Shown: positions 373 to 4,568 of the stretch, piece after piece
Numbering within the stretch: position 1 is the stretch's first letter
How the letters are laid out: the number at the start of each line of letters is the position of its first letter
Source of the DNA: Clostridia bacterium
GTDB lineage: Bacteria; Bacillota_A; Clostridia; Oscillospirales; CAG-272
Direction of reading: 5' to 3'
Length of the DNA stretch: 5,141 bases
NCBI GenBank assembly: GCA_017935805.1
Contig: JAGBGV010000123.1
Coordinates: 1 to 5,141, forward strand
The notes under the pieces: generated by a model
The model's database searches: none
What the model saw: only the letters and a program-made list of their open reading frames with translations
Told to the model about the DNA's origin: nothing
Translations under genes and position numbers: made by a program

Positions 373-1785
373 TTATTCAAAGCAGTTTACGATCTCCTTG
401 AACCGTCTTCCACGGACCTCGAAATTGGGGAATCGGTCGAATGATGCGGATGCGGGAGAGAGGATCACGGTGTCGCCTGCCTTGGCTGCAGCTCTTGCGT
501 CGCCGATCGCACCCTCGAAATCTGCATTCATTATGATCCGCAGGCTATCTTTATGACTCTGGTAATCTGCGTGAGAAGTGATCGCGGAATAAATCTTCTC
601 GGCAGTTGCGCCTGTGAGGACTACTGTGTGTACTGTTGAAGAGAAAATCGCATCTGCCAGCGGCTCATAGGGAATATTTTTGTCGTAGCCGCCAGCTATG
701 AGGACCACAGGTCTATCGCTTATTGCCGACAAAGCCGCCGCTGTTCTTGTGGGGGAGGAGTCGATAGATCCGTTGATGTAGGTTACCCCCTCAAGCTCGC
801 GAACGAATTCAAGACGGTGCTCAACTCCGCCGAAGGTGCGAGCCACTTCGCGGATCTTCTCTACAGTTGTGTAACCGTGAGTCAGGGCGATGGCGGTCAT
901 GTAGTTGGCGGTATTGTGCAGTCCGGGGAGCTTTATGTCAGAGCGCTGCATGATCTCAATTTTGCCTTCACCCGGGAAGCTTGAGTAGATCGCGCCGTTT
1001 TCCAGCCATACCGCGCTGTCGATCTCCCGAAGAAGTCCGCTTGGCAAGGGCTCAAGAGAGAAATATGTTACGGGAGTGGCAGTTTTTTGCATTTCACGAG
1101 CGATCTCACAAGTGATGTCATTGTCTTAGTTCAGTACCGCGCGGCCTGCGTTTTTAAGAATACGCCGCTTTGCCTCGATGTACTCTTCCATTCCCGTGTG
1201 CCAGTTGAGATGATTGGGTGTGATATTGGTAATAGCCGCCACGTCGATCGGGGCATCTATGGTCATCAGCTGGAATGAGGACAGCTCAACTGCCACCGCG
1301 TCGTCTGCCTCGATCTGATGATAACGGTACAGGAGAGGCTCGCCGATGTTGCCTCCGAGAATAGTCTTTCCCACTGGAGAGAGGAGCTTTGAGGTGATGG
1401 TCGTTGTGGTTGACTTGCCGTCGCTGCCTGTTATCGCGAATGTGGGACAGGGGTGAAGTGAGAGGAACATTTCCATCTCGGAGGTGATTACGGAGCCATG
1501 TTTCCGTGCCGCTTCAAGCTCGGGAATGTCAGGGCGGATTCCGGGGGAACGGAACACTATATCCTCGTCAATGTCAGAGAGATAGTCCTCGCCTGTTATA
1601 AGCTGTGCGCCGAGGGAAAGCAGCTTTTCACCGTTCTCTCCAAGCTCGGAGAGGGATTTTTTATCGCGCACTGTCAGCTTGTCACACCAAGGGGAGATCA
1701 TCTCAGCCAGCGGCATATTTGATATACCCGCGCCGAGAAGTGACACGGATTTGCCGCAAAAATATTCTTTTAACGAAGCTTTCAT
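373..1785 (-). pseudogene. murD: UDP-N-acetylmuramoylalanine--D-glutamate ligase (MurD), broken by an in-frame TAA
   Basis: MurD is the cytoplasmic peptidoglycan-precursor enzyme that adds D-Glu to UDP-MurNAc-L-Ala using ATP. The frame from the ATG at 1785 has a GGAGGT site 5 nt upstream and spans 470 codons, the usual family length. Residues 18-23 are the N-terminal GAGISN loop and 119-126 the P-loop TGSDGKST. ELSSFQL (167-173), TPNHLNWH (189-196) and the probable carbamylated lysine K206 mark the ATPase domain. HRLEF (323-327), AGGYDKN (364-370) and SPASASFDRF (443-452) mark the C-terminal D-Glu domain. Codon 220 (1128-1126) is TAA, in the same frame, where I expect Tyr in an LNYDND-like motif. 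The product would be 219 residues with no C-terminal domain. Downstream residues look well conserved apart from Gly339 in the usual NDS motif. This could be a real nonsense mutation, a sequencing error or, less likely, readthrough. The family is certain; functional status is not. Confidence 0.9.
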
Positions 1786-2006: not shown

Positions 2007-2357
2007 GTGACGATCAAGCGAGGGGATATCTACTACGCTGACCTTAGCCCTGTGATAGGAAGTGAGCAGGGTGGCATCAGACCTGTACTTATAGTTCAGA
2101 ACGACGTTGGAAACCGTCACAGTCCGACTGTTATAGCGGCGGCGATCACCAGCAGAATGGGTAAAACGAAGCTGCCGACACATATTGACATATACGCCGA
2201 GCAGGTGGGGCTTCAGAAGGATTCGGTGGTACTGCTGGAGCAGATGCGGACCATTGACAAGAAACGGCTTGGTGAGAAAATGGGGCATCTGGACGAGGCT
2301 ACCATGACCGCGGTGAATAATGCGATTGGAATAAGCTTGGGACTGAGGCTTGAATAA
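2007..2357 (+). CDS. mazF: MazF/NdoA (EndoA)-type mRNA interferase toxin
   Basis: The 116-residue protein resembles Bacillus NdoA end to end and has the same length. MazF toxins are dimeric SH3-like-barrel endoribonucleases that cut single-stranded mRNA at short motifs; the Bacillus enzyme cuts at UACAU. Residues 5-13 (RGDIYYADL), 18-33 ([15 protein letters not shown]) and 35-48 are family hallmarks. Arg25 and Thr48 match the catalytic Arg/Thr pair. [20 protein letters not shown] forms the C-terminal core. The start is GTG with a TGAGGT site only 3 nt upstream; an ATG nine bases earlier runs into TGA in its frame, so GTG is the only sensible start. In Bacillus the gene follows its antitoxin ndoAI/mazE. 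Here the 194-bp upstream gap has no MazE-size frame and the next gene, murD, is divergent, so the toxin seems unpaired locally. The reading frame is intact, ending in TAA. Confidence 0.96.
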
Positions 2358-2845: not shown

Positions 2846-2880
2846 AAAAACAAAAAAGAGACTCCCTCGAGCCTCTTTTT
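2846..2880 (-). terminator. Strong terminator of the EamA gene, probably bidirectional
   Basis: Arms 2853-2864 (AAAAAGAGACTC) and 2869-2880 (GAGCCTCTTTTT) form a 12-bp stem with a 4-nt loop. On the minus strand the one non-Watson-Crick pair is a G.U wobble, and the stem is followed by T6, G, T5 (2857-2846). It begins 4 nt beyond the EamA stop codon. On the plus strand the same site has a single A.C mismatch and a T5 run, so it may also stop transcription coming from mazF and the structured stretch. Confidence 0.85.
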
Positions 2881-2883
2881 CAT

Positions 2884-3780
2884 TTATTGTATTTTCTTCC
2901 CGAATTTCACCTGCGAGAGGAGAATGCCGCAGAAGATCAGCACGCAGCCGATATACGCAGTGATTGACATTTTCTCATTCAGAATTATTGCGCCGCCGAC
3001 AGCTGAAAACACCGCTTCCGTTGAGAGGATGATGGACGCGGAGGTTGGTTCGCTGTGCTTTTGACCGAGAACCTGACAGGTGTACGCCACGCCAACGGAC
3101 ATAAGACCGCAATACAGCACCGGAATGAGTGCCTCGTTGAGCTGTGCCATGGTGGGAGATTCAAAAATCAGCATTCCCACAAGATTGAAGAGTGTACAAA
3201 CCCCAAACTGCGTCATTGAGAAGCGGAGAGAGTACATCTTCTGACCGAAGGTGTCGATTATCAGTATATGTATTGAGAAAAGGACCGCGCAGCAGATCAG
3301 CAGAATATCCCCTTTGGTGAAGGTAAGCCGTCCGCCATTCATGCACACGAGAAACAGACCGCCAACACCGAATATAGCGCCGATCCAGGTCTGGAGCCCT
3401 GTCTTTTTCTTCAGAAATATGCCGATTATGGGCACAAGCACCATGTAAAGACCGGTGATGAATCCGGATTTGCCTGCTGCAGCTGACGGGTCAGCCATTT
3501 CAACTCCAAGCTGCTGGAGATATGAAGCGGTTGCCAAAACGATACCCGCAACTACCCCGACTGCCAAGGTGTTTTTCATCATCGCCTTGTCCCGGGCGTT
3601 TCTTTCAAAAATCAGAATTACGGGAATTAGTGACAGCGTGCCCAACAGATAGCGAGAGAAATTGAAGTAGAACGCGGGCATTGAGTCTGCGCCCATTCGC
3701 TGCGCAACGAAGGCAAAGCCCCATACCACTGCCGCAGTTACAAGGAAGATTATCCCTTTCATTGAGTTTTGTTTTTTCAT
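2884..3780 (-). CDS. EamA/DMT-superfamily membrane transporter
   Basis: The 298-residue protein is an inner-membrane permease of the drug/metabolite transporter superfamily, with ten predicted hydrophobic helices (roughly 8-27, 37-58, 71-89, 103-122, 130-147, 157-176, 185-205, 218-235, 246-266, 272-290). They form the two tandem five-helix EamA repeats. Family marks include VVWGFAFVAQR near the N-terminus and SEPTSASIILSTEAVFSAVGG at the start of the last helix pair. Members export amino acids, metabolites or drugs; nothing here fixes the substrate. I chose the ATG at 3780, with GAGGTG 5 nt upstream. A longer frame reaching 3870 would translate the promoter and the 36-bp repeat and is not credible. 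The gene is a single transcription unit between its own promoter (3811-3839) and terminator (2846-2880). Confidence 0.93.
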   Translation of the reverse strand: MKKQNSMKGIIFLVTAAVVWGFAFVAQRMGADSMPAFYFNFSRYLLGTLSLIPVILIFERNARDKAMMKNTLAVGVVAGIVLATASYLQQLGVEMADPSAAAGKSGFITGLYMVLVPIIGIFLKKKTGLQTWIGAIFGVGGLFLVCMNGGRLTFTKGDILLICCAVLFSIHILIIDTFGQKMYSLRFSMTQFGVCTLFNLVGMLIFESPTMAQLNEALIPVLYCGLMSVGVAYTCQVLGQKHSEPTSASIILSTEAVFSAVGGAIILNEKMSITAYIGCVLIFCGILLSQVKFGKKIQ

Positions 3781-3810
3781 TAATTCACCTCTATGTGTGA
3801 TTCTATCACC

Positions 3811-3839
3811 AATATAACATATTTGGCGAAAAAAGTCAA
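3811..3839 (-). promoter_or_regulatory. EamA gene promoter with extended -10
   Basis: On the minus strand TTGACT (3839-3834), a 17-nt spacer and TGTTATATT (3819-3811) form an extended -10 promoter, with a start near 3804. A 13-bp palindrome, GTGAT-TCT-ATCAC (3797-3809), sits on the predicted start and could be an operator. The spacer resembles that of the promoter at 4451-4479, as if both derive from one duplicated module. Confidence 0.75.
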
Positions 3840-3848
3840 TAAACCCGC

Positions 3849-3884
3849 ACCTGATCCTGCTGCGTTTCACTTGCAGGGCAAGTT
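3849..3884. repeat. 36-bp direct repeat, copy 1
   Basis: This is identical over 36 bp to 4509-4544, exactly 660 bp away in the same orientation. It lies between the terminator of the unknown gene (3903-3939) and the -35 of the EamA promoter. The right half is an inverted repeat, ACTTGC-AGG-GCAAGT (3869-3883). A competing stem, CCTGC/GCAGG (3856-3860/3873-3877), shares bases with it. Similarity continues weakly on both sides, into GGTTTAT near the promoter and GAT.GAG near the terminator. Confidence 0.9.
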
Positions 3885-3902
3885 AGATCGAGGGGTATCG
3901 CC

Positions 3903-3939
3903 AAAACAGAAAAGCCCACTCGGGCAGTGAGTGAGCTTT
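3903..3939 (-). terminator. Terminator of the unknown gene at 3951-4370
   Basis: Arms 3911-3921 and 3929-3939 pair over 11 bp (AAAGCTCACTC with GAGTGGGCTTT on the minus strand, one U.G wobble) around a 7-nt loop. The run TTTTCTGTTTT follows. The hairpin begins about 11 nt after the TGA stop at 3951. The wobble pairs only on the minus strand, which supports this orientation. Confidence 0.82.
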
Positions 3940-3950
3940 ATGTTTCAGGG

Positions 3951-4370
3951 TCAATCCTCAAGATCGTTATAGATTTTTTCGTATGTTTGAATCATTGTGA
4001 CAATAGTTTGCTCTCTGCGACAGAATGCACTGCAGACAGATTCGATCGCTTCCTTTCGTGCGTCTCCATCCATGTCGATGTGTTCCTGACAAACAGAATA
4101 TATTGCATCGGTCAAGCTGGACAGTGCATTACTGTCACCCAGCAACTGCTCCTGAAGCTTTACGATCTGCTCGAATGCTTCTCTTTTGGTGAGTGCTTTA
4201 TTTTCCATTTTATTTTCCTCCAAATATTGTTTCGGAGGACACGCAAGGCATATTTTGTTTTCACCTACGAAGCGTGCCCTGCCGTTTTTCACAAGACCTT
4301 TTGCCCGTTTGGGGTAGGTCGCTTCATATTCGTTTCCTTGCTCATCAACAACAATAATGTTTTTTTCGAT
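3951..4370 (-). CDS. Unknown small protein with YPKRAKGLVKNGRARF segment; start codon apparently lost
   Basis: The frame is open from 4439 but has no ATG, GTG or TTG before a GTG at 4292. The N-terminal part reads EKNIIVVDEQGNEYE, then YPKRAKGLVKNGRARFV and ENKICLACPP, which I associate from memory with a recurring Ruminococcus-type family. The expected first codon is ATC (4370-4368), placed 8 nt after AAGGGGG, so ATG to ATC loss is likely. From that point the protein is 139 residues. The C-terminal part (from residue 55, ATG at 4208) is charged and helical, ending YEKIYNDLED. That ATG has its own GGAGG 8 nt upstream (4217-4221), so an 85-residue product could still be made. Cys41 and Cys44 form a CxxC followed by PP. 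Basic residues 21-33 could bind nucleic acid, but the function is unknown. The gene has its own promoter (4451-4479) and terminator (3903-3939) and is flanked by the 36-bp repeats. Confidence 0.65.
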   Translation of the reverse strand: MEKNIIVVDEQGNEYEATYPKRAKGLVKNGRARFVGENKICLACPPKQYLEENKMENKALTKREAFEQIVKLQEQLLGDSNALSSLTDAIYSVCQEHIDMDGDARKEAIESVCSAFCRREQTIVTMIQTYEKIYNDLED

Positions 4371-4436
4371 GGGTGTCGCCCCCTTGCATTGATTTGCTTT
4401 TTGTGAATGTCGTTTTTTGTTATGGGTACCGTCCCC
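4359..4436. repeat. Imperfect tandem repeat around the expected start of the unknown gene
   Basis: Positions 4359-4383 and 4412-4436 match at 19 of 25 bases, 53 bp apart. Each has a T run followed by ATGGGT, a variable core and CCCC (ATGGGTACCGTCCCC and ATGGGTGTCGCCCCC on the plus strand). On the minus strand the copies cover the leader and the ribosome-site/start region of the gene at 3951-4370. The GGGTACCGTCCCC form resembles motifs seen near REP-type elements, but I cannot show a link. Confidence 0.4.
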
Positions 4437-4450
4437 AAATCAACAACTTT

Positions 4451-4479
4451 ATTGTAACATATCGAAAAAGTTTTGTCAA
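4451..4479 (-). promoter_or_regulatory. Promoter of the unknown gene, extended -10
   Basis: On the minus strand TTGACA (4479-4474), a 17-nt spacer and TGTTACAAT (4459-4451) form a near-consensus extended -10 promoter. The predicted start near 4444 gives a leader of about 74 nt before the expected start codon at 4370. The spacer (TTTTTCGATATGT at its end) parallels the EamA promoter spacer (TTTTTCGCCAAATATGT). Confidence 0.82.
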
Positions 4480-4508
4480 GAGATATTCACACGGCCGATA
4501 AACCGCGA

Positions 4509-4544
4509 ACCTGATCCTGCTGCGTTTCACTTGCAGGGCAAGTT
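4509..4544. repeat. 36-bp direct repeat, copy 2
   Basis: This is identical to 3849-3884. It again lies between a minus-strand terminator (4569-4591, of the flavin reductase gene) and a minus-strand extended -10 promoter (4451-4479). Compared with copy 1 there are about 18 extra bases between the GGTTTAT flank and the -35. The inverted repeat ACTTGC-AGG-GCAAGT is at 4529-4543. Confidence 0.9.
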
Positions 4545-4568
4545 CGATTGAGTGGTGTCTGTAGAAAC

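Follow-up and report, generated by a model that had tools for sequence, protein, structure and literature searches.

An in-frame stop codon in the murD gene of a Clostridia contig is probably an error in the consensus sequence

In rumen metagenome assemblies, predicted proteins that are shorter than their database matches have been used as a sign of sequence error, as set out in a passage of the report concerned (PMC6785717). The murD gene described here resembles those cases in being a truncated frame with an intact database copy, but that passage deals with indels from long-read assembly, whereas here the frame is broken by one in-frame stop with no indel. The intact copy, P0002, is the same protein as that encoded by the interrupted frame except at two of 470 residues, and differs from it by the TAA at codon 220 and by one Gly/Ser exchange. 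The closest solved structure by sequence is 3lk7_A. The surroundings are also shared, since murD in a sister contig is likewise flanked by tRNA-Thr/tRNA-Tyr and a mazF-like gene. Throughout, the window is the whole 5,141-nucleotide stretch of contig JAGBGV010000123.1 (assembly GCA_017935805.1) that we analyzed, and its features are listed in Table 1.

Table 1. Features of the window
Feature	Coordinates	Strand	Remarks
tRNA-Tyr	107-26	-	anticodon gta; downstream of murD
tRNA-Thr	182-108	-	anticodon tgt; downstream of murD
murD (UDP-N-acetylmuramoyl-L-alanine--D-glutamate ligase)	373..1785	-	470 codons plus stop, broken at codon 220; TIGR01087; 468/470 identical to P0002
murD piece after the stop	373..1125	-	rest of middle domain and glutamate ligase domain, TAA end; PF02875, TIGR01087
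In-frame TAA, codon 220 of murD	1126..1128	-	counted from the ATG at 1785
murD piece before the stop	1129..1785	-	N-terminal domain and first part of middle (ATPase) domain; PF08245 profile 1-121/200, TIGR01087
mazF/pemK-like gene	2007-2357	+	PF02452; divergent, upstream of murD
EamA transporter gene (eamA)		-	beyond mazF; profile match
Small gene	3951-4292	-	113 aa from GTG; no Pfam or NCBIfam match
Flavin-reductase-like gene		-	cut by the window's end; profile match

The interruption lies where the plus strand reads tta at 1126-1128, giving TAA on the minus strand, and is the sole internal stop in the murD frame, which is closed by a tandem TAA TAA at 375-370; a preliminary description of this DNA had both the coordinates and the frame of the stop right. 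It also reported MurD signatures intact on both sides in one frame, and the two pieces indeed match successive parts of TIGR01087, positions 2-206 before the stop and 221-440 after it, the latter together with Mur_ligase_C (Pfam), so that their arrangement is not due to chance. With X placed at the stop the whole frame scores 314.1 bits and belongs to the family by its curated cut-off of 211.95, below which either piece falls when taken alone (157 and 145 bits). By profile the interrupted frame is MurD. The match to Pfam Mur_ligase_M covers positions 1-121 of 200 and stops before the TAA, and the middle (ATPase) domain is therefore cut by the stop, where it had been placed previously. Among the 4221 possible single substitutions in the frame, 142 (3.4%, about one in thirty) create a stop.

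When a single in-frame stop interrupts an essential gene from an uncultured bacterium, near-identical database copies should be compared before any claim of recoding or gene loss is made, and it was this comparison, made across about 5.8 billion proteins, that recovered the intact P0002. This public protein is 470 aa long, was found on 2 contigs (the longest of 3217 bases), and represents a cluster of 10 members; it is identical to the window frame at 468/470 residues and has Tyr where the window has the stop. Relatives had been expected to carry Tyr at this codon, and that is the residue in 111/119 of the listed homologues P0003-P0121, the others having Phe (5), Trp (2), or Leu (1). In columns with at least 90% agreement among 38 homologues the stop is the only private departure of the window murD, and the one further departure, a Cys, is common to P0002. 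No near-identical separate half of murD tops the protein lists (best 120 of 1638 and of 657 matches), and among the matches listed with 99-100% coverage the best share 66% and 73% identity with the two halves; as the protein set is clustered at 90%, a separate half may sit hidden inside another cluster.

Homologues from the protein searches are predicted proteins in which an internal stop could not show, whereas DNA can show one. With tblastn, which reads through stops, none of 41 related loci in a species-level genome collection contains a stop inside the matched murD stretch. A family search found a murD match in 194 of 196 genomes, and none of the 150 matches listed has a stop inside murD; conservation of a stop at the codon 220 site was thus absent from both sets. 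There was no same-species genome in these comparisons; the best of 25 genus genomes is G001, with 79% DNA identity over murD, and it is also the best of the 196 family genomes, with 86% protein identity over MurD among the matches listed. No viral contig matches the window, and a plasmid search returned two records, matching tRNA genes only.

The murD gene is normally essential, and the four nearest genomes (G001-G004) contain one match each over the TIGR01087 cut-off, so loss of murD should be lethal. Weaker matches in these genomes, at 20 to 102 bits, lie far under the cut-off and are presumably other Mur ligases. The backup copy of murD that had been raised as a possibility is accordingly unsupported.

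Selective constraint was estimated with a Nei-Gojobori style script against the nearest locus, L001, which has 86% protein identity. The dN/dS ratio is 0.078 before the stop (219 codons) and 0.062 after it (250 codons); with synonymous sites this divergent (dS 1.1 and 1.6) the ratios are approximate, and only an old stop can be excluded by them. With both halves similarly constrained the stop is not old, and we rejected an old pseudogene, for which constraint would be relaxed after the stop. Judged by these ratios, the second half is still under selection, and the stop is either absent from the cells or arose very recently.

Taken together, the intact P0002, the similar constraint on the two halves, and the lack of a stop in the examined relatives point to a sequence error or a recent mutation, both of which were among the explanations listed in the preliminary description, and both of which are ordinary. 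We consider it probable that the TAA at codon 220 arose as one wrong base in the consensus of a contig of metagenome type; that the window derives from a metagenome assembly we infer, and a wrong base call instead of a real rare allele is the most likely source. In the living population murD would then be ordinary and intact, as it is in P0002, with no cell depending on a murD that has TAA at codon 220. An error fits a difference of only two residues from an intact protein, the stop-free relatives, a second half without decay, the expected lethality of murD loss, and the lack of a near-identical half at the top of the protein lists, and the contig is moreover a mosaic relative to G001 (see below), as a chimeric contig would be. 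On the other side, the four other genes in the window have no internal stop and murD has no other private residue at conserved columns, so errors are not widespread in the sequence; the mosaic could reflect natural transfer, the Gly/Ser difference would also suit a separate strain bearing a genuine mutation, and the 10-member cluster of P0002 might include truncated proteins. The interrupted murD is unlikely to be a functional feature, and there is little biological weight in the stop itself; were it real and fixed, one would have to ask how peptidoglycan is made in a cell lacking MurD.

A genuine nonsense mutation of very recent origin, carried by some of the population or by cells that will leave no descendants, is possible but considerably less likely. 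Such an allele would encode an inactive fragment of 219 residues lacking the glutamate-ligase domain. One substitution suffices to make it, similar constraint on the two halves is expected if the stop arose too recently to have affected it, the additional residue difference from P0002 may mark another strain, and conserved columns show no other private change. However, cells with the single murD seen in the four nearest genomes should not grow with this allele, and a consensus base normally represents the majority of reads.

The three remaining explanations, a backup copy, readthrough, and a split gene, all likewise raised in the preliminary description, are improbable even when combined. Tolerance of a real stop through a second murD in the same genome is very unlikely; although the copy counts come from the four nearest genomes instead of the window's own, each of these has only one gene over the cut-off and otherwise matches no stronger than 102 bits, and a gene made redundant could decay freely, whereas constraint is seen in both halves.

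We regard it as just as unlikely that full-length MurD is made by translation through the UAA, whether with a suppressor tRNA, by recoding, or by programmed readthrough, even though the frame is open on either side of the stop and its second half is constrained. TAA closes murD, mazF, and eamA, three of the five genes in the window, with TGA closing the other two, and TAA is therefore an ordinary stop here; the preliminary description had likewise noted that the neighbors and murD itself, with its tandem TAA TAA, stop at TAA, and its view that recoding has no local support agrees with these counts and with the gta anticodon of the tRNA-Tyr. Neither tRNA in the window has a stop-reading anticodon, and none was seen in 30 tRNA loci read of 79 tRNA matches in the two nearest sister genomes, although as these are only part of the tRNAs, and not from the window's own genome, this is no more than suggestive. 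The 90 nt that follow the stop fold no more stably than shuffled sequences (z 0.03), and at gathering score Rfam finds nothing in the window beyond the two tRNAs. With no examined relative having a stop inside murD either, recoding and readthrough were rejected, and it is barely credible that the strain makes its essential cell-wall enzyme by inserting an amino acid at the UAA of codon 220 often enough to be useful while stopping at UAA elsewhere. A scan of 1000-1300 for promoters and terminators gave one promoter-like site on the plus strand and no terminator.

Weakest, and extremely unlikely, is a true split gene whose two polypeptides assemble into an active enzyme, for although an ATG-started frame of 239 aa (373-1092) lies downstream, the cut falls inside the middle domain, no examined locus is split, and no near-identical half stands atop the protein lists.

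The quality of the contig bears on the consensus error that we favor. Relative to the sister genome G001, the window is 80% (3-2380) and 75% (2853-3839) identical to contig C81 (L103), with identity of 70-84% in the aligned 200-base bins between 201 and 3800 and of 96% in the first bin, where the tRNA genes lie. By contrast, 3927-5141 matches a different G001 contig, C9 (L102), at 97% identity. The jump from 75-80% to 97% falls at about 3840-3927, and at this stretch C9 and C81 share an overlap of exactly 127 bases, a length suggestive of an assembler word. From the EamA match to the shared stretch is some 2.8 kb in C81 versus 70 bases in the window. A direct repeat of 59 nt (3841-3899 and 4501-4559, 88% identical, 660 bases apart) sits at the change in identity and flanks the small gene on both sides, and pieces of 3840-4560 match 19/59 family genomes. 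The mosaic could stem from a chimeric join or from recent transfer of the small gene and the flavin-reductase-like gene between two species. It lessens trust in the contig; as evidence on the stop it is indirect, but it gives no ground for greater confidence in the consensus. MAG contigs supply the nearest loci, and their titles give cov values of 8.2 (L001) and 1.3 (L002), which do not stand for the depth of the window.

The mazF-like gene is also present in L001 and L002 (90% and 84% identity) and in L010 (76%). Between it and the EamA gene lie about 500 bases (2358-2883) with no recognized gene, within which 2730-2833 matches the sister contig in an orientation opposite to its surroundings. 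In G001:C9 the small gene encodes 146 aa from an ATG, and because a C run at 4379-4383 is two bases shorter in the window than in G001:C9, the same ATG is out of frame in the window.
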